DNA of 64,000 bases from Thiopseudomonas alkaliphila (GTDB taxonomy: Bacteria; Pseudomonadota; Gammaproteobacteria; Pseudomonadales; Pseudomonadaceae), in NCBI RefSeq assembly GCF_001267175.1, contig NZ_CP012358.1, forward strand, positions 1,466,501-1,530,500, written 5' to 3'. A program made the translations under genes and the position numbers. The notes beneath the pieces were generated by a model, which was not told the DNA's origin, did no database searches, and worked only from the letters and a program-made list of their open reading frames with translations. Below, one piece after another: positions 37,733-61,946 of this stretch. Numbering within the stretch: the stretch's first letter is position 1; every line of letters starts with the position of its first letter.

Positions 37733-37788
37733 CCAACCGCATAAAGTAGGTATCCATAACAGCACCCGCACTTTGGAGCGACTGATAT

Positions 37789-38139: not shown

Positions 38140-38381
38140 CACCTGAGCAGCAAGCCGCATTTAAAACAGCTGCTGGAGGATCAGGGGCCGCTCCGTTCTA
38201 TGAGCTGTTCTCTTTTTCTTTAATGGCACTCGCACTGCTATGGGTTGCCTGGCTATTACTCAACACATATCACGCCTGGGTAAAGGGGAGGATTACCTTT
38301 GGTGGAGCAGGTGGCGTTTACCTAAGAGCCACCCTTTTAATCATTATCTTGATTGCATTTTTTGCAAAATTTGCCAAATAA
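38136..38381 (+). CDS. ICE protein, TIGR03758 family (pilin-like)
   Basis: An 81-residue protein with two transmembrane segments (about 30-46 and 58-78) separated by a short basic loop. The family sits beside the TIGR03745 protein and resembles small pilin-type subunits. Confidence 0.82.
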   Translation: MTPEQQAAFKTAAGGSGAAPFYELFSFSLMALALLWVAWLLLNTYHAWVKGRITFGGAGGVYLRATLLIIILIAFFAKFAK

Positions 38382-38406
38382 AACACATCAATTGGAGACT
38401 CATTAA

Positions 38407-38778: not shown

Positions 38779-38819
38779 TCCCTTTCCCCACACACTCAAG
38801 CATAAGCGAGGAGCAAGGT

Positions 38820-40734: not shown

Positions 40735-42151
40735 TGTCATATTCAAATACATCGTGCCAGCGATGTTGTTAGTCGTTTTAATTATCATCGTTGCTCAGCC
40801 TCGTAAGCCTACCGAGCAACAACGCACAGAAAAAGGCCTCATGCTTTCTCAAGAAGAAGCACGTGAGCTAGGAATCGAGGGTGATACGCCAGCGGATACA
40901 CTGCGCACTCTTGTCGGCGAATTACGTCACATGCGCACCCAAATTAAATCAGCTAACGATAAAAATGATCAGTTATCAGATGCCAACCGTGAACTAGAAG
41001 TACGTAGTACTGAATGGGAAAAACGGCTTGAACAAGCTCTAGCTCGTGCGAACAGTGAAACTGATGCCGCAAAAGCAGAAGCGCAACAAGTGACTAGCCA
41101 AATGATGCAGATGCTATCTGAACTTGAGCATAAAGTTTCAAATAGCACTATGCCTGATTTTCCAATAGGCCTTGGCTTAGAGGATGAACACATCCAAAGC
41201 GAGGAAAAAACTGTCTGGATTAACCCTAGCGATGGAATCGAAACGGATACCCACGGCGCAGTCAAAGATAATGCATTCGCATTCCCCTCCTCTTTTAAAA
41301 ATCCACTGGATGGCTCTCTCTTAGACCAACAGCAGGATTCAGCAAAAAATGCTCTTGGCTCACCTGATGCAAATCAAGATGCAAAAATGCGAAACGAGAA
41401 TGTTGATTCCGTATTTACCATTGCTGAAAACTCAACGCTCCTTGGCTCCGTCAGCATGACAGCCCTGATTGGTCGTGTTCCAGTTGATGGCACAGTCAAT
41501 GACCCTTACCCATTCAAAGTCTTGCTTGGTAAAGACAACTTAGCGGCCAACGGCATTGAACTGCCAGAAATTAGTGGCGCGGTCATGTCAGGCACAGCCC
41601 AAGGGGACTGGACGCTGTCCTGTGTTCGTGGCCAAGTCGAAACCATCACCTTTATTTTTGAGGACGGCACCATTCGAACAGTGCCTGAGCCTGAAAAAGT
41701 TCAACGTAATCGTAGTACCACAGGTAACCAGAACCGTAACAGCATTACCGGCGGCATTGGCTATATCAGTGACCCCTTCGGTATTCCGTGCATTGCAGGG
41801 GACCGCAAGTCCAATGCCAAGGAATACATTACAAATAACAGCCTAATCACAGCTGCAGGTGCTGCCATTGCACGCATTTTCTCTAGTGATGGAAACAATG
41901 TTCAGGTCTCTTCCGGCGGTACCACCATCACAGACAATGACCAGGCATTCAACGCCATTTTACAACGAGGTGTCGGTGACATTCAGGACTGGGTTGGAAA
42001 GATGTATGGGCAAGCATTTGCTGCCGTTTACGTTCCTCCACACCAAGAAATCGCAGTGCATATTGACCGCGAAATCACACTCGACTACGAAAACTTCGGA
42101 CGCAAGGTTAAACACAATGAAGAACACGATGAAATCATTTGGCTTGATTAG
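40724..42151 (+). CDS. ICE protein, PFL_4705/TIGR03752 family (TraB/VirB10-like)
   Basis: A 475-residue protein: an N-terminal membrane span (about 9-24), a coiled coil (about 65-140) and a C-terminal VirB10-like beta domain (TALIGRVPVDGTVNDPYPFKVLL, GGIGYISDPFGIPCI, AVYVPPHQEIAVHIDREI). It would bridge inner and outer membranes in the channel core. Two Cys in the C-terminal domain may form a disulfide. Confidence 0.87.
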   Translation: MKSNVIFKYIVPAMLLVVLIIIVAQPRKPTEQQRTEKGLMLSQEEARELGIEGDTPADTLRTLVGELRHMRTQIKSANDKNDQLSDANRELEVRSTEWEKRLEQALARANSETDAAKAEAQQVTSQMMQMLSELEHKVSNSTMPDFPIGLGLEDEHIQSEEKTVWINPSDGIETDTHGAVKDNAFAFPSSFKNPLDGSLLDQQQDSAKNALGSPDANQDAKMRNENVDSVFTIAENSTLLGSVSMTALIGRVPVDGTVNDPYPFKVLLGKDNLAANGIELPEISGAVMSGTAQGDWTLSCVRGQVETITFIFEDGTIRTVPEPEKVQRNRSTTGNQNRNSITGGIGYISDPFGIPCIAGDRKSNAKEYITNNSLITAAGAAIARIFSSDGNNVQVSSGGTTITDNDQAFNAILQRGVGDIQDWVGKMYGQAFAAVYVPPHQEIAVHIDREITLDYENFGRKVKHNEEHDEIIWLD

Positions 42152-42530
42152 TTTTGTTGCCACTGCAGTCCTGATGTCTGGATGCAGCACAAATAAAGAT
42201 AAGACCTTCCCGCACGGTGACACAACAATGCACGATATCTGGCGTAATGCAGGTGGAGGTGGCATGCAACAAGAGTTAATGGATGCACGTAGCGTTTTAC
42301 GCCGCTCCATTGAGGGTGCACAGATCACCAACCAACACGCTTATACACGAACTGCTGCCAATGAAATTTACAGTCAGTTCAAACGCCTGCCAAACCCAGA
42401 TCTCATTATGTACGTCTATCCACACTTAGCTGGCTCTGAAGGTGCGCCTATTCCAGGCTACTCAACCGTTTTCCCCTTCTACAACAAAGTGCAATACGCC
42501 ATGCCTGGCGAACGGTTGGAGGACTATTAA
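42117..42530 (+). CDS. Conjugal transfer lipoprotein, TIGR03751 family (TraV/VirB7-like)
   Basis: A 137-residue lipoprotein (lipobox LMSGC). The ATG 42117 lies inside the end of the TIGR03752 gene with AAGG upstream; ATG 42129 also works. It ends with YAMPGERLEDY. It probably anchors the VirB10/VirB9-like core in the outer membrane. Confidence 0.85.
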   Translation: MKNTMKSFGLISFVATAVLMSGCSTNKDKTFPHGDTTMHDIWRNAGGGGMQQELMDARSVLRRSIEGAQITNQHAYTRTAANEIYSQFKRLPNPDLIMYVYPHLAGSEGAPIPGYSTVFPFYNKVQYAMPGERLEDY

Positions 42531-45364
42531 TGCTAAGCCTTTTTAAGCGCAGAAAAACTGATGCAGCCCATGAACAGACTAGAGCTACAGTTGCTGATGA
42601 GGAGCTGCTCTATAACGATAAGAAACCAGGATTTCCTCAATTCTTGCCGTGGGTTGAGTATTTACCAGAGTCGAAGGCCTTTCTACTTGAGGATGGACGT
42701 AGTGTAGGCGCTGTTTTTGAGCTGCGTCCTATTGGAACAGAAGGACGCATGCCCGATTGGCTTCAATCCGTTCGCGACATGATTGAGGACGCACTGCAAG
42801 ACTCATTTAAAGAGGTTGAGGAAAGCCCCTGGGTGATTCAAATGTTTTGCCAGGATGTTGATTCAACAGCCGAATATATGGGCAACTTGGAGCAGTACAT
42901 CCAAGCACGGGATAGCCGTAAAAAAGATCATGACAAATCATACGGCACACCGTTTACAGAGCGCTACCTCGAGCTTATGGAGCATCACCTAGTCGCGATT
43001 TCAAAACCAGGCGGACTCTTTCTTGATAAGCGCGTAACAAAGCTTCCATGGCGCGGTAAAAGCCGACAAGTTCATCTCTGTCTGTATCGCTGGATTCCTG
43101 AACGTGAAAGCAGTTCGTCTCTCATGTTTGAACCCATTGATCAGCTGGAACAGGTATGTGAGCGTTTATCGGGTGCGTTGGCCGGTGCAGGTGTACCCGT
43201 TAAACGCTTAGATGGCAAAGACTTTTACAACTGGCTCATGCCATTTTTTAATCCAAAACCGAAAGGGTTTAAGCGACCTTCTGACTTTTATAAAGCCATC
43301 CCCTACCAACAAGCAGCGGATGAATCTGCTGATGCCGCGTTGCTTGATCTACCATTTGATCATGACTTCGCAGAGCAACTCTTCAATAGCGAGCCGGTGA
43401 ATGATCATGAGAAAGGTTACTGGTACTTCGATGGCCTTCCACACCGAGTCATGGTCGTTGACCGCATCCGCAAACCACCCATCATCGGACAGATCGCTGG
43501 AGAAATAGCCAACGGCGATGGTTACAACGCTCTGTTTGATCAGCTCCCAGAACACACCATGATGTCCTTAACGCTGCTCATCACGCCACAAGACATACTG
43601 GAAGATCGCCTCAATCGCCTTGCAAAAAAAGCCATTGGTGAAAACTTAGAATCTGAACAGGTTCAAGACGATATTAATTCCGCTAAAGACATGATGGGCA
43701 GTAAACATCGGCTTTATCAGGGAGCAATGGCTTTTTATATGCGTGCTGACTCTGAAAAAGAGTTAGAAGACCATTCGGTAGTGTTGCTCAACAAGTTATT
43801 AGGTGCAGGGTTACAACCCGTAGAACCTGCTGATGAAATTGCCTCCTGTAATTCATATATCCGCTGGCTACCAATGGTTTTCAAACCTCAACTGGATAAA
43901 AAACTATGGTACAGCAAACTCATATTTGCCCAACATTTCACCAATTTAGCCCCATTCTGGGGACGCACAACAGGTACGGGCAACCCTGGCATCACTTTCT
44001 TTAATCGAGGGGGTGCGCCCGTTACCTTTGATCCGTTAAGTCGAATGGATCGATCGATGAATGCGCACGCACTGATTTTTGGCCCAACAGGCTCTGGAAA
44101 GTCTGCATCCCTCGTTTCATTGATGGCTCAATTAATGGCGGTATACCGTCCCCGACTTTTTGTTATTGAAGCAGGTAACTCATTTGGACTGCTTGCTGAC
44201 TATTTCAAGCTCATGGGGCTCACAGTAAACAAAGTAGCTTTAAAACCTGGTTCATCTATAACACTCGCACCTTTTGCTGATGCTCGACTGCTCTGGGAGC
44301 CTGAGCATCAGAAAGCCATTGATGTGAACGATGAATCAGAAGAGACAGATGAAGAGCGCGATATTTTAGGTGAACTAGCAATCACAGCGAAGCTAATGAT
44401 TACTGGCGGTGAACCACGTGAAATTGAGCGCTTGAACCGGGCCGATGAAAGCACGATTCGAGCCTGTATTTTGGAAGCTGCCCAGCGGTGCACATTCGAG
44501 AATAGGCCAGTATTAACTGAGGATGTCATCGAAGCCTTTGAGCGTAAAGCTGACAGTGAGGAGGGTGAGTTACGCACTCGATACAAAGATCATGCCTCTG
44601 CAATGCGTCTTTTTACTCAAGGGTTTGATGGGGAAATGTTTAACCGGCCAGGTTCAAGCTGGCCTGAAGCAGATGTAACCATTGTTGACCTCGCCACATT
44701 CTCACGTGAAGGCTATGAGGCTCAGATGGCCATCAGCTATATCACGCTAATGAACACCGTCAACAACATTGCCGAACGAGATCAGTACACCGGTCGAGAC
44801 ATTGTGATGATCACGGATGAAGGGCACATGATCACTAAGAACCCGTTAGTGGCACCGTATGCGGTAAAAATCACAAAAATGTGGCGTAAGTTACGGGCAT
44901 GGTTTTGGTTGGCCACACAAAACTTAGCAGACTTCCCAGGTTCTGCAGAAACCATGCTCAATATGATTGAGTGGTGGATTTGCTTGGTTATGCCCAAGCA
45001 AGAAATTAATGACATTGCACGGTTTAAAGAGCTGACGCCTGCCCAAGAAGCTCTGCTTTTATCTGCCAATAAAGAGCCTCAAAAGTATACCGAAGGTGTA
45101 GTTCTCTCTCGTAACCAAGACTTCCTTTTTCGTGCTGTTCCACCTTCTCTTTTTCTTGCATTAGCCATGACTGAAGGCGAAGAAAAGCGTGAGCGCATGC
45201 TTGTGATGGAAGAGCATAACTGCTCAGAGCTTGAAGCTGCCTTTTACATCGCCGAACAGATTGACCGAGCGCGCGGGATTCAGCCATTGCCGTGGAAGCA
45301 TTTATTTGCTGAGCACAACGAAGAAGCTAGTGGAGAAGGATTGAAAGATGCCTGCAAAGCTTGA
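42530..45364 (+). CDS. Conjugative transfer ATPase, PFL_4706/TIGR03744 family (TraC/VirB4-like)
   Basis: A 944-residue ATPase that powers pilus and channel assembly. Walker A GPTGSGKS lies at about 518-525, followed by a VIEAGNSFGLLADYF strand and Walker B IVMITDEGHM. The N-terminal half is the VirB4-type partner-binding region. It overlaps the preceding lipoprotein gene by one base and the tiny gene at 45348. Confidence 0.93.
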   Translation: MLSLFKRRKTDAAHEQTRATVADEELLYNDKKPGFPQFLPWVEYLPESKAFLLEDGRSVGAVFELRPIGTEGRMPDWLQSVRDMIEDALQDSFKEVEESPWVIQMFCQDVDSTAEYMGNLEQYIQARDSRKKDHDKSYGTPFTERYLELMEHHLVAISKPGGLFLDKRVTKLPWRGKSRQVHLCLYRWIPERESSSSLMFEPIDQLEQVCERLSGALAGAGVPVKRLDGKDFYNWLMPFFNPKPKGFKRPSDFYKAIPYQQAADESADAALLDLPFDHDFAEQLFNSEPVNDHEKGYWYFDGLPHRVMVVDRIRKPPIIGQIAGEIANGDGYNALFDQLPEHTMMSLTLLITPQDILEDRLNRLAKKAIGENLESEQVQDDINSAKDMMGSKHRLYQGAMAFYMRADSEKELEDHSVVLLNKLLGAGLQPVEPADEIASCNSYIRWLPMVFKPQLDKKLWYSKLIFAQHFTNLAPFWGRTTGTGNPGITFFNRGGAPVTFDPLSRMDRSMNAHALIFGPTGSGKSASLVSLMAQLMAVYRPRLFVIEAGNSFGLLADYFKLMGLTVNKVALKPGSSITLAPFADARLLWEPEHQKAIDVNDESEETDEERDILGELAITAKLMITGGEPREIERLNRADESTIRACILEAAQRCTFENRPVLTEDVIEAFERKADSEEGELRTRYKDHASAMRLFTQGFDGEMFNRPGSSWPEADVTIVDLATFSREGYEAQMAISYITLMNTVNNIAERDQYTGRDIVMITDEGHMITKNPLVAPYAVKITKMWRKLRAWFWLATQNLADFPGSAETMLNMIEWWICLVMPKQEINDIARFKELTPAQEALLLSANKEPQKYTEGVVLSRNQDFLFRAVPPSLFLALAMTEGEEKRERMLVMEEHNCSELEAAFYIAEQIDRARGIQPLPWKHLFAEHNEEASGEGLKDACKA

Positions 45365-45515
45365 GTTCAACGTGCCACTGACACCCGTTCTAATTGCTTC
45401 ACAGCAAGAAATACAGCGGTTACAGCAATCTCCTGACCCGCAAGACCGTGAAGCGTTACGGGCACTTTTGGAAGTTATCAGTCCCCTTTTGAAAAAAACT
45501 GCTCAGAACAAATAA
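45348..45515 (+). CDS. Small protein between virB4-like and TIGR03757 genes (55 aa)
   Basis: A 55-residue soluble helical peptide (MPAKLEFNVPLTPVLIASQQ start) that begins inside the last codons of the ATPase gene and ends 10 bp before the next start. GGAGAAGGA upstream is a good ribosome binding site. The function is unknown; the tight packing favours a real gene. Confidence 0.6.
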   Translation: MPAKLEFNVPLTPVLIASQQEIQRLQQSPDPQDREALRALLEVISPLLKKTAQNK

Positions 45516-45525
45516 AGGGCTTGTT

Positions 45526-45951
45526 ATGAATATGAATTTAATACGCAACCTGTGCATGGCCCTGCTTATTGGAGTCAATACAGCGCACGCCACCAATGAA
45601 CCCGAAGTGCTGCTGTTTACCGATAGGGCTAATGAATTTATAGACAATGGTGGCTATCCAGTTATTTATCTGGATGAAGTACTTCATCTTGAAGAACAAC
45701 TGACACAAGCAATCAGTCACTTCGATCTATCAGAACACATGGACGCCGCAACAGTCGACGCTGTTCGAAACCAGCTCAGCCAAGTGATGGATAAACAAGC
45801 ACTCATGGATGCTTATGCAGGCTTATCACTCGCTTGGAGCCTCAACATTACCCATGTTCCCGCCATTGTGACGCGATTTCCAGGCGAACGACCGCTTGTG
45901 AGCTACGGTGAATATTCTGTTCCAGAATCGCTTGGGAGAGTCAGAAATTGA
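45526..45951 (+). CDS. ICE protein, PFL_4709/TIGR03757 family
   Basis: A 141-residue secreted protein: signal peptide (cleaved near AHA|T), VLLFTDRANEFIDNGGYPVIYLDE and ITHVPAIVTRF. The last motif is thioredoxin-fold-like (TrbC-like). It is probably a periplasmic pilus-assembly factor and overlaps the TTG start of the next gene. Confidence 0.83.
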   Translation: MNMNLIRNLCMALLIGVNTAHATNEPEVLLFTDRANEFIDNGGYPVIYLDEVLHLEEQLTQAISHFDLSEHMDAATVDAVRNQLSQVMDKQALMDAYAGLSLAWSLNITHVPAIVTRFPGERPLVSYGEYSVPESLGRVRN

Positions 45952-46889
45952 TCACTTTCAAGAACAGTCTATACACACTCTTATTTTCAAGCATCACACT
46001 GACCGCCCTGACCACAGGGCCTGCCTATGCAGTCAATACAGCTCAAATTGTCGCTAATACAGCGAATGCCCAATGCATGGAGTGGAGCGTAGTAGGCACA
46101 TGCTTTTGGCTCAAGTGCAGCCCTAAATGCAAAGTGCGCACCAGTGTGAAAGTGAAGCACTATATTCCTGAGGTCGTAGTTTCAAGCTATACCAATACCG
46201 GCGCTAATCCGTGGACTGAAATGGCCCTGTTGGGCTCGTCAAAACCAGGCGCTGAAGACGGAGGAAACCTAATTACGCCCAATCAAAAACGGGGCAACCT
46301 GCCACGTTTTAAAAATACAGATGTTATTGGCCATCCCGCAAGCTACGTTCTGAATCAACTCAGCAGTTACACCTGCAGCAGTGCAACCACTGGTTTCATG
46401 CCGTACTACCTATCAACTTTAGATGTGCCTAGTTGGCGGTGGGGAGTAACGGAGATGCTCTATCCACAATCGATCATTCCAGGACAGCGTGAAATTCAGA
46501 AAGGCATGAATGGCTGGGGGTCAGTGTACCCACGACAAGGTTTTTTGGTTCAAGGAGATGATGGAAAAGCCGGTGCCGTCCTCGCTCAGCGCGCAGCTGA
46601 CTTCGTGGTTCGTACGGGTCAGCCCCATGTTTATAAAAGTATTTTTGCCCGTAAACAAGAAAGCCGAGGTTGGTGGCCACCTGGAGCTTATGAGGATCCT
46701 CTTATCGAAGGTAATAAAAAAACTCATAAGTGGCAGCAATTACACCCTTCTGTTTCCAGTAGCTGCGAAGTATGGCCTACCAGTGATCAGGTAGAACAAG
46801 ATGCCCAAGGGGGCTATGCCTATGCGCTTTGGCGGCCTTACCGCTGCTGTGAGCCTAAAGGGACTTTTTTATATTCAATTGGCCAGTAA
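45948..46889 (+). CDS. ICE protein, PFL_4710/TIGR03756 family (TraU-like)
   Basis: A 313-residue secreted Cys- and Trp-rich protein resembling TraU, a pilus-assembly and DNA-transfer factor. Signal peptide ends near AYA|V. Cys pairs (WLKCSPKCK, YRCCEPKG) suggest several disulfides. Start is TTG 45948, overlapping the previous stop. Confidence 0.85.
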   Translation: MITFKNSLYTLLFSSITLTALTTGPAYAVNTAQIVANTANAQCMEWSVVGTCFWLKCSPKCKVRTSVKVKHYIPEVVVSSYTNTGANPWTEMALLGSSKPGAEDGGNLITPNQKRGNLPRFKNTDVIGHPASYVLNQLSSYTCSSATTGFMPYYLSTLDVPSWRWGVTEMLYPQSIIPGQREIQKGMNGWGSVYPRQGFLVQGDDGKAGAVLAQRAADFVVRTGQPHVYKSIFARKQESRGWWPPGAYEDPLIEGNKKTHKWQQLHPSVSSSCEVWPTSDQVEQDAQGGYAYALWRPYRCCEPKGTFLYSIGQ

Positions 46890-46901
46890 GGACACCATCA
46901 G

Positions 46902-48299
46902 ATGGATAAATTAAACACACCCCTAAAGTTGCTAACAGCCACCGTATTTCTAGCAACCAGCTCCCTAAGTGCAGCAATACAGGCTTTTGATATCAGTGAG
47001 CGACCTTATGAAAAAGTGACTGGGACAGCAGTCAATGACAAATTGAGTTATGAGCTGGGAGGAGGTGCCGCTTACGGGGCTGCAAGCACACGTATAGTTC
47101 CACCAAGCATCGGATTCGGCATTAAATGGGACGCTGACATGATGTGCGGCAGCATGGACTTGCAGACCACAATTAAAAACCAGCTCAATGGTTCAACTGA
47201 CGGCTTCAAAAGCATTATGGGCGGTATTGTTGAATCAGCTACAGGTGCTGTTATGAGCCTGCCAGCTATGATGATTCAGCGCTCAAATCCTGGTCTCTAT
47301 GAAATGCTGAGTAACGGTGTTTTACAGGCCAGAGTCGACTTCGATCGCTCGAAGATTTCTTGTCAAGGAATCTTAGACCAAGCCAGTGCCTACCTTGATG
47401 GTGGTCCAAGCCTTACTTCTCTGGCAAAAGCAGAAACCATGAAATTAGCCGTCCAAGCAACAGGCGGCGACAGTGTGGCCGCCGAACAAAAAGCTGAGTC
47501 TGAAGGAACCGAAAATGGTGTTGTATGGATGGGCGAAAGACGTGGTGGCTTAGGTCAAAAACCGTTAGCACTAACAGAAGACATTGTACGCCGTGCTTAC
47601 AACACAAGTGTCGGACGCATAACGAATACCAATGCATTAGTAACCGCTGCTCAATGCAATGGAGCAGCGATTTGTTCGCTATGGGATACACCACAAAAAG
47701 CAGCAGAATTTGCAAAGAAAGTAGTAGGAGAAACCGAACTCACCACCTGTCAGGATGGTTGTGATCCAGCAGTGATCAAACCAGGAACTGGCCTTCTCCA
47801 TCTAGCTGACGAGGTTTACGAAGAAAAAGCCGAGCTAATGATCAAGCTGCTGGATAAAACTCAAACTATGAAGGATGAAGATCTACACAAGCTATCGACA
47901 CCTATGTTGCCTGTGTCACGCAGTGTGGTCGAAGCACTCCGTAATGATCCTGATGGCCAAGTGCTCTCAGAACGACTGCTATCTGAGATTGCTCTGGCTG
48001 ACATCATTTGGAAAGGCATGCAGCTCATGCGACTTCTGATGACAGGTGCCCAAAACCCTGATGTTCAGAAAGTGGCTGAAGCGAAGCAACACGTCTCGGA
48101 TAAGGTTGCCAACCTGCAGGCCGAAATTGACTCCATGAAAATGGAAATGGAGATGCGTCGTGAGCTCGCCAATAACACGGCCACAGCTGTACTAAATCGA
48201 GCGGCTGTAGCGCGAGCTCAAACGGGCTCAGTCGTTGAAGCGGATGCTGCACCTGATCGTTTACAGCAATCAGAAAAAGGACAGGAAGCCACGCCATGA
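46902..48299 (+). CDS. ICE protein, PFL_4711/TIGR03755 family (TraH-like)
   Basis: A 465-residue secreted protein: signal peptide (cleaved near IQA|F), YELGGGAAYGAAST, a FDRSKISCQGILDQA motif, a cluster of Cys (AAQCNGAAICSLW, TTCQDGCDP) and a C-terminal coiled coil. Equivalent to the TraH-type pilus assembly protein. It overlaps the next gene by four bases. Confidence 0.85.
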   Translation: MDKLNTPLKLLTATVFLATSSLSAAIQAFDISERPYEKVTGTAVNDKLSYELGGGAAYGAASTRIVPPSIGFGIKWDADMMCGSMDLQTTIKNQLNGSTDGFKSIMGGIVESATGAVMSLPAMMIQRSNPGLYEMLSNGVLQARVDFDRSKISCQGILDQASAYLDGGPSLTSLAKAETMKLAVQATGGDSVAAEQKAESEGTENGVVWMGERRGGLGQKPLALTEDIVRRAYNTSVGRITNTNALVTAAQCNGAAICSLWDTPQKAAEFAKKVVGETELTTCQDGCDPAVIKPGTGLLHLADEVYEEKAELMIKLLDKTQTMKDEDLHKLSTPMLPVSRSVVEALRNDPDGQVLSERLLSEIALADIIWKGMQLMRLLMTGAQNPDVQKVAEAKQHVSDKVANLQAEIDSMKMEMEMRRELANNTATAVLNRAAVARAQTGSVVEADAAPDRLQQSEKGQEATP

Positions 48300-48625
48300 T
48301 TCAGTTCATTAAAAGAAACGTATTAGTTCTCTCGATCTTTCTAACATTTATTGTTGCAGCTCTGCTGTACACCATCCAACTGTTGCTTAACGGTGGCGAT
48401 CCCATTGCTGTGCTTCAACAAAACGCTGAACTGGCCAATTATTGGTTGGCTTGGCGAATAGCTTTGTATTTAGGCGTCACCGCTCTCTACCTCTACCTTG
48501 TTCGCAAGCACACAGCCCAAGAGAATTTTAAGCACGTTGCCTATCTAGGCAGAATTCGTAACTACGGCCTCTTAATTATGCTCGCCAACGAAATCTCAAA
48601 CTATATTCGTTACTTCGAGGGATAA
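48296..48625 (+). CDS. Small membrane protein of the transfer operon
   Basis: A 109-residue protein with three hydrophobic segments (about 10-30, 48-65, 85-100). It overlaps the TraH-like gene (ATGA) and lies three bases ahead of the TraG-like gene. This position is constant in the family; the function is unknown. Confidence 0.72.
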   Translation: MIQFIKRNVLVLSIFLTFIVAALLYTIQLLLNGGDPIAVLQQNAELANYWLAWRIALYLGVTALYLYLVRKHTAQENFKHVAYLGRIRNYGLLIMLANEISNYIRYFEG

Positions 48626-48628
48626 GTC

Positions 48629-50302
48629 ATGGGAATGACAACATTTAGCTATTTTGAGTATTACCTAACCATGTTGGGCTGGGCCATCAGTAACAGCCTC
48701 TGGTCAGCATTGACTGCCAGTGGTGTTGCGCTTATTCCTATCATTATTCTTTTTGCACAATCAATGCTGGATGCTCGGCAGAAAGGTGAAATAAATGTTG
48801 AAGCCGTCACAAAAAGTGTTGAAAGCAGAGTATGGCAAGCTTACGTGGTTATCTTATTTGCCTGTATTCCATGGCCTGTTGTGAATTTAGGGGAAATTAA
48901 GGTAGATACAACTGCTTCCTGCGGTGTCACGCAGATCGAGCACAATAAAACACAGTGGGGAGGTGAGTTTTCAACCATTGGTAACGTAAAACCTCATGTG
49001 CCTGTTTGGTTTAATCTGATACATCTCCTTTCAAAGTCAATTACCGGTGCCGCTATTGCATCTATTCCTTGCGATGGTGATATCCGCTCAACTATGTTTG
49101 AAATTGATAACCAACGCATTGCAGATCCTAACCTAATCGAAGAAGTCGCCCAGTTTACCAACGAGTGCTACGCTGAAGCTCGGGTCAAACTCTTTCGTGA
49201 TAAACATGTGACTGAAAGTTGGACTGACGTTAGTGGACTCGCCACAAAATGGGAAGCTGGATGGATCGGTTCTAAAATATTCCTGGAAACCGGTGGTTAC
49301 TACGACAGCATGCGTGCACTGAGTCCACAATACCTTTTTCCTTGGAAGGAGAGTCGCGATGAAGGACTCGCTCCCGGGCGAGATGGAGGTGGGTACCCTA
49401 TCTGTAAAGACTGGTGGCTCAACAAAGATAAAGGACTACGCAAGCGTCTAGCCGAACAAATCAAGCCAGGCTTATTGGAGAGAGTATCGAGTACATTTCG
49501 TTGGGGAGAAAGTAGTACCGATAGTATGATTCGCAACCTAGTAAGCCCTAGCTCCATGGAGCGCTCAAAAGAAATGGGATCACCTTTTTATAATATGGGC
49601 CCCAGTACTGCTACAGGCGTAGCCGGCGCTCTAGATTGGGGGCGTGAACTGGTTAATAACTTCCAAACAACTAAAAAAACTGGCCCACTCGGGAGTGAAC
49701 GAGATAAGGCTGAATCAAAAGTGCAAGCTATGCGTGCAGCATTGCCAATGTTTCAGGCTATCGCTTATATGGTGCTTGTGATTTGTATACCTATTGTCCT
49801 CGTGCTTAGTGGTTACTCATTTAAAGCTTTGTTTCAATTATCTCTCGGGATGTTTACCATTCATTTTCTGACATTTTTCTGGGAGCTGTCACGCTGGTTG
49901 GACTCTAAAATGCTAGCTGGGCTGTATATGAATCAAGGCGTAGGGGCTGTAGCTACTCGTATGATGCCTTGGACAGACCATGGGGCAGCCTACTGGATGT
50001 CAGACTTTGTACTTTGGGGATCCCTAGTCGTAATGCCTGCATTGTTCTTGATATTTATGGGCTGGGCTGGAATGGTAGCTACCACATCATTCTTAGCTGC
50101 AGCAGCTCTTGGAGGGGAAAGTGCTGGAGGATCATTAGGAAATATCGGAGCACAATCTGGTATTGGTTTAAGCAGCAAAATGAGTAGTACTGCAAATAAG
50201 GCTGGGGGGGCTGCAATAAGGGCCGGTGCTCGTGTCGCTAGCAAGCATCCGCAAGTGAAAGCAGCTAAAGCGGCAGCTAATACGGTACGCAATCTCCGCT
50301 AA
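48629..50302 (+). CDS. TraG N-terminal-domain conjugation protein
   Basis: A 557-residue polytopic protein: an N-terminal span (about 25-45), another near 70-90, a long periplasmic loop with Cys residues, then a cluster of spans (about 370-500) and an Ala-rich basic tail. It matches the TraG-N proteins that close the PFGI-1-type cluster and act in pilus biogenesis and mating-pair stabilisation. A terminator follows. Confidence 0.87.
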   Translation: MGMTTFSYFEYYLTMLGWAISNSLWSALTASGVALIPIIILFAQSMLDARQKGEINVEAVTKSVESRVWQAYVVILFACIPWPVVNLGEIKVDTTASCGVTQIEHNKTQWGGEFSTIGNVKPHVPVWFNLIHLLSKSITGAAIASIPCDGDIRSTMFEIDNQRIADPNLIEEVAQFTNECYAEARVKLFRDKHVTESWTDVSGLATKWEAGWIGSKIFLETGGYYDSMRALSPQYLFPWKESRDEGLAPGRDGGGYPICKDWWLNKDKGLRKRLAEQIKPGLLERVSSTFRWGESSTDSMIRNLVSPSSMERSKEMGSPFYNMGPSTATGVAGALDWGRELVNNFQTTKKTGPLGSERDKAESKVQAMRAALPMFQAIAYMVLVICIPIVLVLSGYSFKALFQLSLGMFTIHFLTFFWELSRWLDSKMLAGLYMNQGVGAVATRMMPWTDHGAAYWMSDFVLWGSLVVMPALFLIFMGWAGMVATTSFLAAAALGGESAGGSLGNIGAQSGIGLSSKMSSTANKAGGAAIRAGARVASKHPQVKAAKAAANTVRNLR

Positions 50303-50316
50303 ACTATTTAGTCGTA

Positions 50317-50352
50317 AACAGGTGGCTGTATTAGACCAGTCACCTGTTTTTT
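50317..50352 (+). terminator. Terminator of the transfer operon
   Basis: AACAGGTG/CACCTGTT stem, followed by TTTT. Confidence 0.85.
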
Positions 50353-50394
50353 ATAAGATGCGTTTCAAGTAGCTGCGCACACGAATATTTTTTA

Positions 50395-50772
50395 TTACCA
50401 CTTATGCAGACTTTCAGCATATTCACGCAGGCTTTGTTCGGACTCAATCTGCTGAGCCATTAAGGCTGCTTCATCATATGCCTCTTGTCGTCCCTGCGCT
50501 CGCCCCTCCTCTCGCAACTCATCCGCCAGCTGCTCAGCTTTGCTTTTCTGGTTTGAGTTCGTAAGCATGAAATACACAAATGTGACAAAAGCTATTAACC
50601 CGGCCAGCATTAATCCAAGTCCAATCAATACTCCCCAAGTCAACACATTGACCAAAGGTTTAGGCAGTTTCAATGCAGTGAACAAGCTGCTCACCTTAGT
50701 TTTGACGGATCGAGCGACACCCAGCGCTATTTGCCCATATCCCGCGTTTTGAGTTCCAAATATACGTTCCAT
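50395..50772 (-). CDS. DUF3742 family protein
   Basis: A 125-residue protein opposite to the transfer genes: basic N terminus, one transmembrane segment (about 50-72) and a charged C-terminal helix (LADELREEGRAQGRQEAYDEAALM). This fits DUF3742, which is routinely found after TraG in these ICEs. I use ATG 50770-50772 with GGAG upstream; a TTG seven codons earlier is possible. Confidence 0.83.
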   Translation of the reverse strand: MERIFGTQNAGYGQIALGVARSVKTKVSSLFTALKLPKPLVNVLTWGVLIGLGLMLAGLIAFVTFVYFMLTNSNQKSKAEQLADELREEGRAQGRQEAYDEAALMAQQIESEQSLREYAESLHKW

Positions 50773-50969
50773 TGTAGTGTCTCCAACCGTCAAACATATG
50801 CAGAAAAAAACTTAATATGCCACAAACTTAATATACACCCTTGTCAGGGTCAACCTGTCATATAAACAAATTGATGCAACTTTAAAGAGTTAGTTGCGAT
50901 ATAGTTGCACCTCAAAAGTTATTTCTAATGAAAAACACTTTACTTTAGAAAAACCAAGAGGGATTTTGG

Positions 50970-51756
50970 ATGCCGATAAATTTTGACTACCCTTTCCATG
51001 AAATCAACACAAAAGCTGAAATAATCCAACTCAACTGTAGAGGTAACACTCTTTTAGCGTGGTGGTATTGCAGCATCTATAAAAACGCAAGGGATCAGTC
51101 TCAACCTCTCGTTCTTGTGGCCTTCCGAATACAAATCAATGACAAGACTTTTTCAGATGAAATTGTATACCGCTACATTTCCATAGCCCTACTCAGCCAG
51201 ATACGAATAGGCAGTCTTTGCAGGGATAACAGAATGGTTGCTCATGCAACGTATGAAACACGAGAGTTTGACTTGATATATGAGAAAGGAAACTGGTGGT
51301 TCACTTCTTTTGACAAAACCACAGAGCTAAATCGTCAACCTCCATTCCCGTTAAGTATTTATCCTCTTATACACAAACGCGATAAAAACTGGCTAGTTGA
51401 ATTTAAACTCCAATCTGACAACAATCTGGTAGTGCAATGCCTTGAGTACTCTAATCGTTGCTACGGGCAGTCGGCAGAGCTACGTCGCATTCTTATGACT
51501 TACCTATGGAACGGTAAAGACGGAAGAGCCTTTCAAAGGACTTGTTTTCACTCTAAATCATCCAGGTGATTTTTATAACTGGCTAAAAACCTTATTATCA
51601 CAGGTTAGACACATGAAAGGTGTAGTGCACACACAGACCAAATACTGCCCAGGTAAAGCAGATTCATTTAAACACGTGCCCTCATCTAACGATGAAGTAC
51701 CATGCTGGGCAGCACTCAACAATGCTCTTGGTGAAATGAGCATACAGGTGAATTAA
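50970..51756 (+). pseudogene. ICE accessory protein of unknown function, frameshifted near 51520
   Basis: The frame from 50970 runs for 199 codons to TGA 51567-51569. Its last 15 or so residues look out of frame: one base of offset near 51518-51524 (GGAAGAG) gives a natural continuation (EPFKGLVFTLNHPGDFYNWL ... GEMSIQVN) to TAA 51754-51756. Repaired, the protein would have about 261 residues. I do not recognise the family. The fault could be real or a sequencing error. Confidence 0.6.
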
Positions 51757-51924
51757 AACGAAAAATTTATTAGGATATACTGCGAAGCTTTATCATAATA
51801 TCTTTATAGCGGATATTTTTATATATTACTTACCGGTTAAATTATAGATATTATAAATTTATTAAAAACAGACAAGCTGACACTTTAAATAAATCAACAT
51901 AGAAAATAAGTTTGGTGACTTACA

Positions 51925-53841
51925 ATGACTAAAAGCACAGAAAAAGAATATAAGCTTAATATAGACCCAAGAATACTTGAACTACTGGGGCCAAATCTAT
52001 ATACAAATATATATTATGTACTGGCTGAACTTATTGCCAATGCATACGATGCTAATGCAAGTAACGTATACATTATTACCGACAACAATTCTATAACTGT
52101 GGAAGACGATGGAGTCGGAATGTCATACTCTTCAGGTGACGTTGATAGGTTTTTAGATGTAGCAAAAGAAACACGAACTAGTATTGATAACTCGTTTGTT
52201 CCGGGAAGTAACAGAAAAAGAGTGAAAATGGGCAGAAAAGGAGTCGGTAAATTAGCAGCTCTTTCTGTATCAGAAAATGTAATAGTTAAGACGGTAAAAA
52301 ATGGAGAAAAGTCAGGATTTATACTTTCTAGAAAAGTGAGAGACGATAAAACTCTTGATCCTATAGATGATTCAGATATCACCTTTTCGCACATTTCGGA
52401 CAACGGTACAGCTATAGTAATGACGGAGCCACAATACGATCTCAATAAAACATTGAAATCAGCCAAGAACAACATTCTAAGAATTTTTCCTTTAGTTGAT
52501 AAAAACTTCAGAATTCATCTTAAAATGAAAAATAAACCTATAGTTACTATCGATAGTTTTGAAAAAGACATCATTTCAGGGCTAGCCTGTATGATTACTT
52601 TAGGCGATGATTTTCACTCTTTGCATGACAACTTTAAGTTTGATCTTAAGAACCTATCTAATGCTCAAAAAGAAAATTTATCTAAACGATCTAAATCATA
52701 TATATGTAGGCTCAATAGTTTAAAGAAAAAAGATGGCACCGTAAGCGATTATACTTTAGAAATATCGGGTTGGATTGGAGCTTATCGAAGTACAAAAGGA
52801 CGTAAGAAAAACCAAGTGGATTTTCCTGATAACTTTATCTCACTCGTTTCAAATAAAAAAGTTGGTGAATTCAATATTCTTCCGGTGGTAGGAAAAAACG
52901 CATTGAATGAAGTATATGTTGTGGGCCAACTACATATAGACTTATTTGAACACTCAGATCTTCCTGATATGGCACTAAGTAACCGCCAGGGATATAAGTC
53001 TGATGATAAAAGATATGAAGCAGTCACGAAATATATTCGCAATGAACTATTGCCTGAAATAATTTCCATGAGATCAAAATACACCTCGTATAAGAAAGCT
53101 ACAGATGAATCCATTAAAAATGAAAAAAAACTTGTTCTCGAGGAGAGCTTAAGAAAAGGTATAGATGACTTCAAACAAAATGCAGTTAGGAAAAGTGTCG
53201 ATGAAATTTCCAGGCTAGACGGTAATGCGACATCTCAAGATATTGCCACTGCGATTGAAAAATCAATTAATACATCACTTCCAGACATGGGAATAAAATC
53301 TAAAGTAGATGGTAATAAAAAAAGACTTTTAATTAGTCACTCAAGTCGAAATAAAGCTATTGGAGACTTCTCTTATAACTTACTAACTTTTGCTGGAATT
53401 CCAGGTAATGATATCATTTATACATCTAATGATGATGCTATTAGCAGAGTACCAGAGTCGGAAGGGGTTTTTGATTACTTAAAGAATTTTTTTGTTAACA
53501 GCTACTCAACAGAAAAAATATATGTTCTTTACATTACTAGTGATGAAATGGCATCTAGTTGGGCCTGTGTTTCTGAAGTTGGTGCAGGCTGGGTTTTAAA
53601 AAGTGAGCATAATCTATTTAACTTAAATTCTCATACTCCACGAGAACCTCTAAATACATCTAGAGAATGGGCAAATATAGAATATGATGATGAAAATGGG
53701 TCAATAGAAATAACTCGCCGTACAGCTGACGTTCTTGCTGATAAAATAATCCATATATGTAACTTTTTAGGATACTCTCCCAAAAATAAATCTGAAATCT
53801 TATCAGAAATATCTAAAAAGGTTAATTATACAGATGACTGA
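51925..53841 (+). CDS. GHKL ATPase fused to a TIR-like domain (putative defence effector)
   Basis: A 638-residue fusion. Residues 20-200 form a GHKL/Hsp90-MutL-MORC type ATPase: N box LAELIANAYDANA (33-45, E35, N39), G1 DDGVGM (61-66) and G2 GRKGVGKL (103-110). Residues 200-390 fit the S5-like transducer (GYKSDDKRYEAVTKYIRN end). A charged helical linker (390-455) leads to a TIR-like domain (466-615): strand LLISHSS (468-474), VLYITSDEMASSW and SEVGAGW with E551 as the likely catalytic glutamate. TIR enzymes of this kind cleave NAD. The gene is AT-rich compared with the transfer genes and overlaps the convergent methyltransferase by 16 bp. A defence role is inferred from domains and neighbour. 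Confidence 0.85.
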   Translation: MTKSTEKEYKLNIDPRILELLGPNLYTNIYYVLAELIANAYDANASNVYIITDNNSITVEDDGVGMSYSSGDVDRFLDVAKETRTSIDNSFVPGSNRKRVKMGRKGVGKLAALSVSENVIVKTVKNGEKSGFILSRKVRDDKTLDPIDDSDITFSHISDNGTAIVMTEPQYDLNKTLKSAKNNILRIFPLVDKNFRIHLKMKNKPIVTIDSFEKDIISGLACMITLGDDFHSLHDNFKFDLKNLSNAQKENLSKRSKSYICRLNSLKKKDGTVSDYTLEISGWIGAYRSTKGRKKNQVDFPDNFISLVSNKKVGEFNILPVVGKNALNEVYVVGQLHIDLFEHSDLPDMALSNRQGYKSDDKRYEAVTKYIRNELLPEIISMRSKYTSYKKATDESIKNEKKLVLEESLRKGIDDFKQNAVRKSVDEISRLDGNATSQDIATAIEKSINTSLPDMGIKSKVDGNKKRLLISHSSRNKAIGDFSYNLLTFAGIPGNDIIYTSNDDAISRVPESEGVFDYLKNFFVNSYSTEKIYVLYITSDEMASSWACVSEVGAGWVLKSEHNLFNLNSHTPREPLNTSREWANIEYDDENGSIEITRRTADVLADKIIHICNFLGYSPKNKSEILSEISKKVNYTDD

Positions 53842-54869
53842 ATAAAACTTTTTCCAATAATCTCTCCTAAGTCTACAGGGACTGCATTACCGATCATTTT
53901 CCCTACTTGAGAAATATTAACTCTTTTTCCTGTAGGGAAGAATTTGTAATCTGCAGGGAAAGTTTGAAGAATAGCTGCTTCTCGTAAAGAAATGGCGCGA
54001 TTCTGTTGCATATCGTAATGACCAAAACGCCCGTTACCAAAGCCATAACATTGCGTTGTCATGGTGGGCGATGGTTGACATCCTCGCATGCGAGCATAAA
54101 CACCGCTATATGTTTTACCGCTTTCTTTTTGATGGCATTTCGCAATTAAGTGTTTTGGCCAATCATTCCAAGTACCTCCAGGCCTAGAGTGGCGAATACG
54201 CTCAAGATTAAGTGCAGATAACCCAGCTGCTCTGTGCAGAGGATCTAAGCGATCTGTTTCTCCAGCCTTAATAGGTGGAAGAAAACCGATAGCTTCCTGA
54301 ACAGTCTTGTAATTATCACGGGTATGGGTTGGCTTTATTAACTTAACTTCACCTATAAGCGATGCTAATAAAACATGTCTTTTTCGGGCTTGTGGTAACC
54401 CGTAATCAGGGCAAAACACTTCATCTGCCCACACTAAATACCCAAGTGATTTTAATTCTTTAACAAAATCATTATATACCTTATGCTTTGTCACATCAGG
54501 CACATTCTCCATAGTAACAAGCTCAGGCTTAACTCCTCTAATTAAACGAGAAAACGAGTATAGAAGAGGCCATCTTTTATCGTCACTAACGTTTCTGCCT
54601 TGGGAGTAAGTAGAGAATGGCTGGCAAGGAGCGCACCCTGCTAACAGCTTGAGGTCCCCTTTAGGAAATAATGCAGAAAGCGTTTCCGAGCTTAGAGTAG
54701 CAATATCTTGGACAAAAAACTTGGCCCCTTTATTGTTTTCCTCATACGGATATTTACATGCTTCTTCTATATCGAAGCCGGCAACAACATTAATTTTTGC
54801 CTTGATTAGTCCGTGTGTTAACCCACCAACCCCACAGAACAGATCAATAGCAGAGATTTTTTGAACCAT
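53826..54869 (-). CDS. DNA (cytosine-5) methyltransferase
   Basis: A 347-residue C5-cytosine methyltransferase with all key motifs: I DLFCGVGGL (9-17), IV catalytic PCQPFS (Cys82), VI ENV (121-123), VIII QARKR (160-164) and X GNAVP (327-331). The target-recognition region (about 170-290) is short; the target is not predictable. It looks active. No restriction endonuclease gene is adjacent; the only close partner is the GHKL-TIR gene, convergent with 16 bp overlap. It could mark self DNA for that protein or be a stand-alone methylase. Confidence 0.92.
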   Translation of the reverse strand: MVQKISAIDLFCGVGGLTHGLIKAKINVVAGFDIEEACKYPYEENNKGAKFFVQDIATLSSETLSALFPKGDLKLLAGCAPCQPFSTYSQGRNVSDDKRWPLLYSFSRLIRGVKPELVTMENVPDVTKHKVYNDFVKELKSLGYLVWADEVFCPDYGLPQARKRHVLLASLIGEVKLIKPTHTRDNYKTVQEAIGFLPPIKAGETDRLDPLHRAAGLSALNLERIRHSRPGGTWNDWPKHLIAKCHQKESGKTYSGVYARMRGCQPSPTMTTQCYGFGNGRFGHYDMQQNRAISLREAAILQTFPADYKFFPTGKRVNISQVGKMIGNAVPVDLGEIIGKSFIQSSV

Positions 54870-57682: not shown

Positions 57683-58450
57683 CTAAGCATTTTTTAATTG
57701 ATAGCGTGCAGGTGTTGTACCTGTATGCTGTCGAAAAAATGTAATGAAAGCACTGTCGCTTACAAACTCTAATTGTTGTGCAACATAAGTTATCCTCGCT
57801 CCATCAGATAGCATTTCCATTGCTCTCAGCAATCTCCACTGTTGCCGCCATGCCTGATAACTCATTCCAGTATCTCTAATAAATATCCGGCTTATCGTGC
57901 GCTCAGATGCGCCGACCTGATGCGCTAAATGACCAAGACGCGATGGCATCTCACCTCCACGTATTTTGTCTAGCCATACCTTCAAACGCGTATCTGAAGG
58001 AAGCCGCAATGTCCAGTTCTCTACACGTGCAGCTTTTAACTCCTCACAAAAAACGGTAATAAGACTGACCTGCTGATCTGCCGGCATATCCCATGGCCAG
58101 AATGCCATACGCTCTATCACTTGGAAAAATAGAGGATTAACCTCTACTACCTGCAGTGCTAAATCAGATAAAGGCAACGCAGTTGAAAAATACAAAGAAC
58201 GATAGGCTAATTCTCCACGCATAATGGCACGATGAATTGTTCCTGCTGGAATCCAAGCTGCCCGTCCTGGTGGAAGTTGGCACAGCGTTTCTTCCAGCTC
58301 AATCGTAATGCTCCCTGAAGCTGAAAATAGCAACTGATGTCGAAGATGGCTGTGCCTACCTGAGTCATGTACGCCCATATCAGACGCAATGCCTATTACC
58401 GGTTCGTTAAAGCTATCTGGATCAAAAACATCACTAGGACTGATTTTCAT
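57683..58450 (-). CDS. AraC family transcriptional regulator
   Basis: A 255-residue regulator: an N-terminal cupin-like ligand domain (HSHLRHQLLFSASGSITIEL, PPGRAAWIPAGTIHRA) and a C-terminal pair of helix-turn-helix motifs (LAHQVGASERTISRIF; FVSDSAFITFFRQHTGTTPARY). It is divergent from the MFS transporter gene, with 98 bp between the two starts, so it most likely controls that gene. Confidence 0.9.
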   Translation of the reverse strand: MKISPSDVFDPDSFNEPVIGIASDMGVHDSGRHSHLRHQLLFSASGSITIELEETLCQLPPGRAAWIPAGTIHRAIMRGELAYRSLYFSTALPLSDLALQVVEVNPLFFQVIERMAFWPWDMPADQQVSLITVFCEELKAARVENWTLRLPSDTRLKVWLDKIRGGEMPSRLGHLAHQVGASERTISRIFIRDTGMSYQAWRQQWRLLRAMEMLSDGARITYVAQQLEFVSDSAFITFFRQHTGTTPARYQLKNA

Positions 58451-58548
58451 AACTTGTCCGATATTTTATATATAAAGTCTTTATTATTGTAATAAGACAA
58501 TATTTTCTCAGCAATTATAGCTTTCTGTTTTTTCTATTGAATGTTGTC

Positions 58549-59697
58549 ATGAATCCTATTATTAAACCGCCACTGTGGCTGCTGGCACTGCTCATTATGT
58601 TTCCACAACTAGTTGAAACGATATATAGCCCTGCACTGCCAAACATTGCCAGATCTTTTCAAGTCAGCAATGAGCACGCAGCTCAAACGCTTTCAGTTTA
58701 TTTTTTCGCCTTCGCTGCCGGAGTGGCACTGTGGGGTTGGCTTAGTGATTGGATTGGACGGCGTCCAGCAATGATGGCCGGACTCGGTTGTTACGGAGTG
58801 GGAGCGGCCATGGCAATTGTAGCCACTGATTTCAATATATTACTGCTGGCCCGCATGGTGGCTGCCTTAGGTGCCGCTGCTGGTTCTGTTGTAGTACAAA
58901 CGATGCTAAGGGATAGTTATCAATCAACCACCCTAGCACGCGTCTTTTCTGTTATGGGTGCTTTACTTGCAGTAAGCCCTGTTTTCGGCTTGATCACTGG
59001 AAGCTGGTTGGTGAGTTTGTATGGCCATACTGGAGTATTTATCGCATTAGTATCCTTGGCGATAGTTTTGCTAATACTGACGGCTATTTCCCTTCCGGAA
59101 ACACGACCAAAGAATACGCTAACTATTCGAAGGAGTAATTTAGCCTATCGCATGGCTCGGGACAGGGCGCTGTGGAAAAGTGCGCTACTTATCGCACTGC
59201 TAAACACAATGCTATTCAGTTATTACAGTCTGGCTCCGTTTCTTTTCAAGCGTTTAGGCTGGGACTCCACGGAATTTGGCTGGACAGGCGCTTTACTAGC
59301 CCTCGCCTCCCTCTCTGGTAGTCTCCTTAATCGCAAGTTACTAACGACCAACATAACACCGGAACAACTGGTCCATTACGCATGTGCTCTGGCACTCCTT
59401 TCAGGTATGGTCGCTTGGAAGCTGCAGCACTCTGTTTGGATACTTGTACCGATAGCAGGGGTTGTTATTGCCTATGGCATAGCGATACCCAACGTGTTGA
59501 GCCAAGCTTTAAAAAATTATCGCGAACAGACCGGAGCCGCTGGAGCATTGTTCGGGTTAAGCTACTATCTACTGCTGGGCATGATGTTAGGGATAGCAGG
59601 TATGGTGCAGCAACTAGGACTAGTGCTAACAGTGTGCGCAGCCATAGCTCTACTATGCAGCATATCGCGCAGAATATTTGATAGGTCGTACTATTGA
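58549..59697 (+). CDS. MFS drug-efflux transporter, Bcr/CflA-like
   Basis: A 382-residue transporter with about 12 membrane spans. It carries the MFS motif A-like GWLSDWIGRRPAMM (about residues 60-73) and the DHA1 antiporter motif segment LGAAAGSVVVQTMLRD. It is likely a proton-driven exporter of a drug or metabolite. ATG 58549 is preferred; a TTG four codons earlier is possible. The divergent AraC gene is the expected regulator. Confidence 0.88.
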   Translation: MNPIIKPPLWLLALLIMFPQLVETIYSPALPNIARSFQVSNEHAAQTLSVYFFAFAAGVALWGWLSDWIGRRPAMMAGLGCYGVGAAMAIVATDFNILLLARMVAALGAAAGSVVVQTMLRDSYQSTTLARVFSVMGALLAVSPVFGLITGSWLVSLYGHTGVFIALVSLAIVLLILTAISLPETRPKNTLTIRRSNLAYRMARDRALWKSALLIALLNTMLFSYYSLAPFLFKRLGWDSTEFGWTGALLALASLSGSLLNRKLLTTNITPEQLVHYACALALLSGMVAWKLQHSVWILVPIAGVVIAYGIAIPNVLSQALKNYREQTGAAGALFGLSYYLLLGMMLGIAGMVQQLGLVLTVCAAIALLCSISRRIFDRSYY

Positions 59698-61214: not shown

Positions 61215-61946
61215 ATGTATCAACAAGTAGATGCGTTAAAGCATGCTTTAGATAAGCTGCGTCCATTACCTGCCGAAACCGTAAAAAGCCTGCAAGAGGA
61301 TTTAGTTTTACGTTGGACTTATCACTCTAATGCGATTGAGGGCAACACACTTTCCTTACTTGAGACAAAAGTGGTGCTTGAGGGTATTACTGTAGGGGGA
61401 AAAGCGCTTAGAGAGCACTTTGAAGCAATCAATCACCGTAATGCTATTTACTACGTTGAGGACATCATCAATCAACAAGAGTCTTTCTCTGAGTGGCAAA
61501 TACGCAATATCCATCAACTAATTCTAAAGAATATTGATGATGAAAATGCCGGCCGCTATCGACAGGTTAACGTGCTTATTTCAGGGGCAACGCATACGCC
61601 ACCAGACTGCGCATTAGTTGCGGACAAAATGCAACAGTTTATAGCATGGTATCAACGAGATGCGCACAAGCTGCACCCTATTGAGCGTGCAGCTAAGGTA
61701 CACGCTGATTTTGTAGGCATTCACCCATTTATTGATGGAAACGGACGAACTTCACGCCTGTTAATGAATTTAGAGTTGATGAAGGCAGGCTATCCACCGT
61801 GTGTGATCACAGTAGAAGATCGACTGACTTACTATGATGCACTCGATCAATGGATGACAAAGAATAATGAGCGACCCTTCATAGAGTTAATTGAGCGCTC
61901 AGTACTGGCAGCCTTCGATTCTTATAAGCGCGTATTAAAACTTTAG
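61215..61946 (+). CDS. Fic family protein (putative AMP transferase)
   Basis: A 243-residue protein with the full Fic motif HPFIDGNGRTSR (170-181), which transfers AMP from ATP to a target hydroxyl. The N terminus carries SNAIEGN (38-44), the inhibitory S/TxxxEG/N helix of class II Fic proteins, so activity is probably self-restrained through E42. The target is unknown. It stands alone between non-coding stretches. Confidence 0.9.
   Translation: MYQQVDALKHALDKLRPLPAETVKSLQEDLVLRWTYHSNAIEGNTLSLLETKVVLEGITVGGKALREHFEAINHRNAIYYVEDIINQQESFSEWQIRNIHQLILKNIDDENAGRYRQVNVLISGATHTPPDCALVADKMQQFIAWYQRDAHKLHPIERAAKVHADFVGIHPFIDGNGRTSRLLMNLELMKAGYPPCVITVEDRLTYYDALDQWMTKNNERPFIELIERSVLAAFDSYKRVLKL

Follow-up and report, generated by a model that had tools for sequence, protein, structure and literature searches.

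The 64,000-nucleotide stretch of Thiopseudomonas alkaliphila contig NZ_CP012358.1 analyzed here (the window, to which positions refer unless another locus is named) carries two convergent genes that probably form a restriction-modification-like system, with a rough probability of 0.65. One gene encodes a 638-residue fusion of a GHKL ATPase, an S5-like middle domain and a TIR domain, with a paraMORC4-like architecture (51925..53841, forward strand), and the other encodes a 347-residue C5-cytosine DNA methyltransferase (53826..54869, reverse strand). In the proposed reading, a restriction enzyme of the BbrUII/HgiDII type has exchanged its nuclease half for a TIR NADase, which would be armed by unmethylated sites. 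An earlier note, made from the letters alone, had described the convergent arrangement and its 16-bp overlap of 3' ends (53826..53841), which is confirmed. Both reading frames are intact and keep the named active-site residues.

Domain architecture of the fusion

The GHKL ATPase and S5-like domain occupy approximately residues 1-390 (51925..53094, forward strand), as assigned from structure matches and invariant residues. Using a predicted model of the full-length protein, structures of MORC3, MORC2, Hsp90, topoisomerase VI and MutL are matched over residues 13-390. The GHKL residues E35, N39, D42, D61, D62, G63, G65, G103, G106 and G108 are invariant in the 39 sequences of alignment A1, made up of the window plus 38 members of the list of 120 relatives described below. 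The fusion therefore has the GHKL and S5-like domains that belong to the paraMORC4 definition.

The TIR domain spans residues 457-638 (53293..53838, forward strand). Because GHKL structures took up the Foldseek and VIA matches of the full-length model, the TIR part was modeled separately. The predicted fold is that of a TIR domain, as the earlier note had expected for residues 466-615, so that both of its domain calls are borne out by profile and structure-model matches. The top structural match of this model is the NADase SpbK, and SPARTA, SARM1 and AbTir are also among the matches. Sequence and TIR-only model agree on a TIR fold with a catalytic Glu, as in TIR NADases and paraMORC4 proteins. 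Residues S539, E551, G553, A554 and W556 are invariant, and E551, G553 and W556 align with E192, G194 and W197 of SpbK (chain numbering minus 24; SpbK numbers as given in PMC12847820). E551, proposed as the catalytic Glu from the start, and the SpbK-type Gly and Trp are identical in 79 of 79 aligned rows, a count that includes the window and locus L080 and excludes L062 and L074; a second alignment, A2, comprises the window and 70 of the 73 usable loci. The paraMORC4 TIR motif Hx[ST]xD reads H-S-S-R-N in the window, and across the 79 rows position 472 is H (32) or Q (47) and position 476 is D in 78. The PADLOC spbK model covers only residues 388-565 of the fusion (model positions 65-241 of 308), so the protein is not a full-length SpbK. 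NADase activity of the fusion is predicted by analogy with SpbK, which according to the accessible part of PMC12847820 is a proven NADase carried on an integrative and conjugative element (ICE), loses NADase activity and defense in the D158R, N191R, G194R and W197A variants, is turned on by clustering of its TIR domains and is triggered by the phage portal protein YonE.

A homologue 94% identical to the fusion (P0001) comes from a metagenome-assembled genome (MAG) of Tenuifilaceae, which reflects either recent cross-phylum transfer or a misbinned contig.

A restriction-enzyme counterpart

Residues 9-437 of the fusion match positions 1-407 of the 659-position BbrUII/HgiDII profile NF050001 with an E-value of 1.2e-61. 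The window fusion scores 209.1 bits, below the family cut-off of 550, and has a TIR domain in the place of the C-terminal nuclease of BbrUII, whereas full members of the family in loci L081-L083 score 658-752 bits. In these loci a methyltransferase adjoins the restriction enzyme or lies one gene off, and the window likewise has a 5-methylcytosine (m5C) methyltransferase of the same lineage next door. The C-terminal half of 42 BbrUII relatives holds a conserved D...ExK pattern and the C-terminus of L083 gives a weak SduA_C match (E 0.0035), on account of which this half is read as a PD-(D/E)xK nuclease. A joint alignment of fusion and BbrUII sequences contains 65 positions conserved in both, of which 58 fall within the first 375 residues and the 7 later ones are taken as alignment noise. 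Since the shared conserved positions concentrate N-terminally, the two proteins look like a single clamp with two alternative effector halves.

Two observations concern the wider family. The BbrUII/HgiDII proteins of L081-L083, as GHKL-ATPase/PD-(D/E)xK-like fusions, may be close to GHKL-Shedu. On a viral contig (L084:7980-9653), a protein that joins a BbrUII-like GHKL part to a TIGR02391 domain is encoded next to an m5C methyltransferase and a Vsr-like gene; this fusion is a possible third effector type, its methyltransferase having an unlike recognition domain.

Association with the methyltransferase

The window methyltransferase has the catalytic residue Cys82 and matches DNA_methylase (E 1.1e-54) and the dcm model TIGR00675 (123 bits, cut-off 100.65). 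A homology search with the fusion scored 7998 candidates, of which 2369 proteins matched at E <= 0.001; each of the 120 listed relatives aligns over 96% or more of the query with an identity of 50% or higher, and the remaining matches may include BbrUII-type proteins. For loci in named genomes, the best 80 of 89 relatives gave 79 distinct loci, selected by the fusion alone and not by its partner. Methyltransferases were counted by single-sequence score (E < 1e-20, at least 100 aa). This replaced a home-made methyltransferase profile, which was dropped because it also matched short proteins, two of those scanned being Vsr nucleases (L029, L007).

A C5-methyltransferase lies within two open reading frames of the fusion in 60 of the 79 relatives, which belong to many phyla and include archaea, so the pairing is kept in homologues as had been anticipated. 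Of these methyltransferases, those codirectional with the fusion lie upstream of it in 46 loci and downstream in 5; 8 loci have the convergent order of the window and 1 is divergent. In two further loci (L005, L059) the methyltransferase is elsewhere in the locus. The fetched loci L031 and L050 contain none, but the L031 contig begins within the gene, and the L050 genome encodes a 64%-identical methyltransferase at G010:C19:83743-84750, probably on the same contig about 12 kb off as judged by coordinates. In a search of whole genomes, covering 30 of those that hold the 79 loci, the window methyltransferase was matched in 29 (E <= 1e-10; 37 matches in total). Because such genes occur about once per genome, their adjacency to the fusion is very unlikely to be due to chance. 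The neighbors of the window in the tree, L003 (Kordiimonas) and L004 (Thalassospira), are also convergent, with overlaps of 8 and 43 bp. This tree was built by a quick method with long branches flagged; it excludes the interrupted or cut L054, L059, L062 and L074, and adds the viral L080 and three BbrUII rows.

Some loci are larger. L072:7992-13061 holds a GHKL-TIR fusion, a methyltransferase and a third gene whose 704-aa product begins with a BbrUII-like GHKL part and ends in a histidine-kinase part. In the Bacteroidota loci L038, L043, L044 and L058, the locus is enlarged by extra genes for proteins of about 600 aa and 362 aa upstream of the methyltransferase and fusion, and the genes for the ~600-aa proteins match both the home-made methyltransferase profile and the Vsr seed.

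Target site of the methyltransferase

The presumed target-recognition part of the window methyltransferase comprises residues 178-285 (54015..54338, reverse strand; limits set by us from motif order). Among 75 methyltransferases (2775 pairs, with the window and L080 included and L074 excluded), mean pairwise identity is 56.1% in this part and 51.5% in the remainder of the protein. Conservation of the recognition part like that of the catalytic core across phyla suggests that the group recognizes one target site. The methyltransferases of BbrUII loci are also similar to that of the window in this part (L081 69%, L082 52%, L083 51% and L138 62% identical), and those of L084 (32%), L085 (24%) and L088 (22%) are unlike it. 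M.HgiDII methylates GTCGAC (PMC5867850, as far as accessible), and as the methyltransferases of BbrUII loci group with that of the window, GTCGAC is put forward as the tentative site, at somewhat less than an even chance. The best PADLOC model for the methyltransferase is DrmMII (PDLC02651, 343 bits), the published site of which we take to be CCWGG, but this model match does not settle the site. Vsr-like genes are present in 21 of the 79 loci; Vsr repairs the deamination product of m5C, and the presence of these genes therefore fits real m5C marking.

Fusions within DISARM operons

The genes around the fusion in L041 encode proteins with PADLOC matches to the DrmD, DrmMI, DrmA, DrmB and DrmC models; the best model is DrmA for the first protein and type IIG for the second, with DrmD and DrmMI ranking next. 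Using the L041 Drm proteins as seeds, the set is found whole or in part in 15 of the 79 loci (L012, L015, L017, L023, L030, L033, L040, L041, L042, L052, L061, L066, L067, L077 and L079). All 15 have the fusion placed between DrmMI and DrmA, with no other gene intervening in 8. A methyltransferase of the same lineage is held by 14 of the 15 genomes and neighbors DISARM genes in every one of the 12 loci in which its surroundings were examined; for L030 and L052, its place next to the DISARM locus was judged by coordinates only. The starred branches of the tree require at least seven switches between DISARM and other contexts, and DISARM recruitment or loss therefore happened repeatedly.

Relatives of the L041 DrmA protein occur in 9 of 369, 6 of 398 and 7 of 390 genomes, the first search having a looser limit. 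Sixteen further DISARM-like regions were read, five DISARM genomes having been included previously and G038 being left out; in five of these regions (L144-L148) no DrmMI match was found. The slot between DrmMI and DrmA is variable in content. A full BbrUII/HgiDII restriction enzyme (864 bits, cut-off 550) occupies it in L138, an AspBHI/Mrr-type enzyme in L149 and, in L142, a protein that weakly matches reverse transcriptases. L139 has a BbrUII/HgiDII enzyme (866 bits) with more genes ahead of DrmA, in a region that ends short of the methyltransferase position. KAP- and Schlafen-type NTPases are found near the variable slot in L138, L139, L142 and L149.

The window itself is not a DISARM locus. 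Although the best PADLOC model for its methyltransferase is a DrmMII, it lacks DrmA, DrmB, DrmC, DrmD and DrmMI, and a tblastn search with the five L041 Drm proteins gave nothing better than E 1.1 in the whole window. In the accessible text of two DISARM-related papers (PMC9142583, PMC12458937), the terms TIR and GHKL are absent.

Genomic surroundings

The pair is located just past the transfer genes of an ICE, which include traC (TIGR03744), TraD (TIGR03754) and ICE_PFGI_1 ParB (TIGR03764), all scoring above their cut-offs. The cargo region is AT-rich, with a GC content of 0.33-0.37 at 51-54 kb against 0.44-0.49 at 38-51 kb, and the ICE stretch at 36000-51900 has no megablast match in Escherichia coli genomes. 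Farther downstream, an AraC-type regulator and a Bcr/CflA-family efflux gene (57683-59697) show about 77% DNA identity to a pair from Enterobacter and Klebsiella plasmids. A 243-aa protein (61215-61946) weakly matches part of the XopAC/AvrAC family (50 bits, cut-off 450), perhaps a Fic-type domain.

Discussion

The architecture of the fusion has been in print since Iyer, Abhiman and Aravind (2008; PMC2292703) described paraMORC4 as GHKL plus S5 with a C-terminal TIR domain. In the accessible text, paraMORC4 is one of the GHKL families whose restriction-modification neighborhoods contain DNA methylases, helicases and nucleases, its TIR domain is conjectured to act as a nuclease or a site of binding, and its occurrence is described as infrequent and patchy; a two-gene paraMORC4/cytosine methylase pair is not spelled out there. 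A different GHKL branch with C5-methylases is described by Bellieny-Rabelo et al. (2021; PMC8011034, in the part accessible). The earlier note had put the locus forward as a candidate new defense system and was aware of no described one with this very pairing. No single PADLOC model spans the fusion, but the architecture and its general setting were already published and the exact pairing is perhaps in print too. What this analysis adds to paraMORC4 is the SpbK-like active-site residues, a counted methyltransferase partner, the equivalence to BbrUII/HgiDII restriction enzymes with a shared recognition domain, and the link to DISARM; on this comparative evidence the function and wiring of paraMORC4-type fusions may be reinterpreted. 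In the open-access literature, which leaves subscription papers and bioRxiv mostly outside, no report was found testing NADase activity, methylation gating or phage defense of a GHKL-TIR/methyltransferase pair.

In the proposed mechanism, the methyltransferase, a C5-cytosine enzyme by its sequence, would mark one fixed site, perhaps GTCGAC, in host and ICE DNA. The GHKL-S5 module, with the fold given by its model, would act as an ATP-driven dimerizing DNA clamp like MORC and MutL. Clamps loading on DNA with unmethylated sites, brought in by a phage or plasmid or arising in host DNA after loss of the methyltransferase, would bring TIR domains together; clustered as in SpbK, these would build composite active sites centered on E551 and break down NAD+, so that the cell would stop growing or die before the invader can multiply. 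For a pair carried on an ICE, cells from which the element is lost would be punished by this logic as well. We infer the gating of the fusion by methylation, and the earlier suggestion that methylation serves as the self mark draws its support from comparison: fusion and true restriction enzymes have in common the N-terminal GHKL-S5 module, methyltransferase lineage, recognition part, locus design and DISARM slot (L138), and differ in having a TIR domain or a PD-(D/E)xK-like nuclease. Taken as a whole, the earlier interpretation is partly supported.

Several explanations compete with this reading. The TIR domain is closest to that of SpbK, a sensor of a portal protein (PMC12847820), and shares with it sequence, fold, active-site Glu, interface Gly and Trp and carriage on an ICE (ICEBs1 of Bacillus subtilis in the case of SpbK). 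The fusion might accordingly be an abortive-infection sensor of a phage component, with the methyltransferase as an independent protective or regulatory partner that, for example, keeps the fusion off host DNA or controls its expression. This is unlikely, as SpbK senses the portal with a different N-terminal domain and the accessible text mentions no methyltransferase partner for it, whereas the sensor half of the fusion is MORC/MutL-like and common to restriction enzymes, the spbK model matches the TIR part only, and the constant partner would be left unexplained. That the pair is mainly an ICE addiction module, in which loss of the element dilutes the methyltransferase until leftover fusion kills the cell at unmethylated sites and phage defense is secondary, is quite unlikely, although the pair is on an ICE, the trigger is identical and restriction-modification pairs can act as addiction modules; 15 of the 79 relatives are in DISARM, a defense system. 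This explanation may be compatible with the restriction-modification-like reading.

A classical restriction-modification system, with the TIR domain as a nuclease or ligand-binding domain as Iyer et al. (2008; PMC2292703) proposed for paraMORC4, would suit a fusion that can occupy a restriction enzyme's place. It is nevertheless improbable, given that the catalytic Glu, and the Gly and Trp on which both assembly and NADase activity of SpbK depend, are invariant, and given the structural matches to SpbK and other TIR proteins; none of the profile scans assigned a nuclease family to the C-terminal part. The AT-rich cargo region could suggest chance neighbors with a decayed or inactive fusion, but this is hardly credible and already contradicted by the intact frames, the kept active-site residues, and an association conserved across phyla with about one methyltransferase match per genome.

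Other observations weigh against the restriction-modification-like reading itself. No recognizable sequence-specific DNA-binding domain was detected in the fusion, and the specificity of BbrUII may reside in its nuclease half, which is absent from the fusion. Residue 476 (53350-53352), located in the first loop of the TIR domain, is Asn in the window and Asp in all 78 aligned relatives. VcSduA, a GHKL-Shedu (paraMORC3) protein, is likewise a GHKL clamp with a C-terminal effector, and its phage defense is lost when the ATPase or nuclease site is changed; its effector, however, is a nuclease and the cells that it protects stay viable, which means that the presence of a GHKL clamp alone is no sign of suicide (PMC12137116, the accessible part of which mentions no methyltransferase). 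GTCGAC is not clearly avoided, ranking 19 of 64 palindromes in L001-L079 and 5 of 64 in the window, where it has 3 sites. The L074 methyltransferase is only 29% identical to that of the window in the recognition part. Methyltransferase and GHKL distances correlate moderately (Mantel r 0.37, 0 of 2000 permutations as high, 60 pairs from 59 loci including L080 plus the window; TIR versus methyltransferase 0.32, GHKL versus TIR 0.91), and shared descent alone may partly account for this. Within DISARM, the methyltransferase of L066 and L079 is beside DISARM genes yet on a different contig from the fusion, and the genome of L023, a MAG whose contig starts at DrmMI, has no methyltransferase match. 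Among the 16 further regions, the fusion is found only in L150, where it is interrupted and the methyltransferase heads the operon. Neither a fusion nor BbrUII accompanies the methyltransferase in L149, L151 and L152, because of which strict co-dependence of the two in DISARM was rejected: the methyltransferase there needs no fusion.

Beyond the window, the chances are about even that such pairs form a widespread "restriction-NADase" class, with the same clamp and methyltransferase lineage and swappable effectors, in which unmethylated sites, possibly GTCGAC, lead to NAD loss and which serves repeatedly as an abortive back-up in the variable DISARM slot. If true, restriction-modification would be a principle of sensing that allows coupling to more than one effector, either cutting the invader or shutting the cell down, and the pair would offer one of the simplest tests of TIR arming by DNA methylation state. 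It would also account for a family that has lacked an explanation since 2008 and put a suicide effector inside DISARM, and the natural swap of nuclease and TIR on one chassis would provide a clean comparison for how MORC/MutL-type clamps read DNA.

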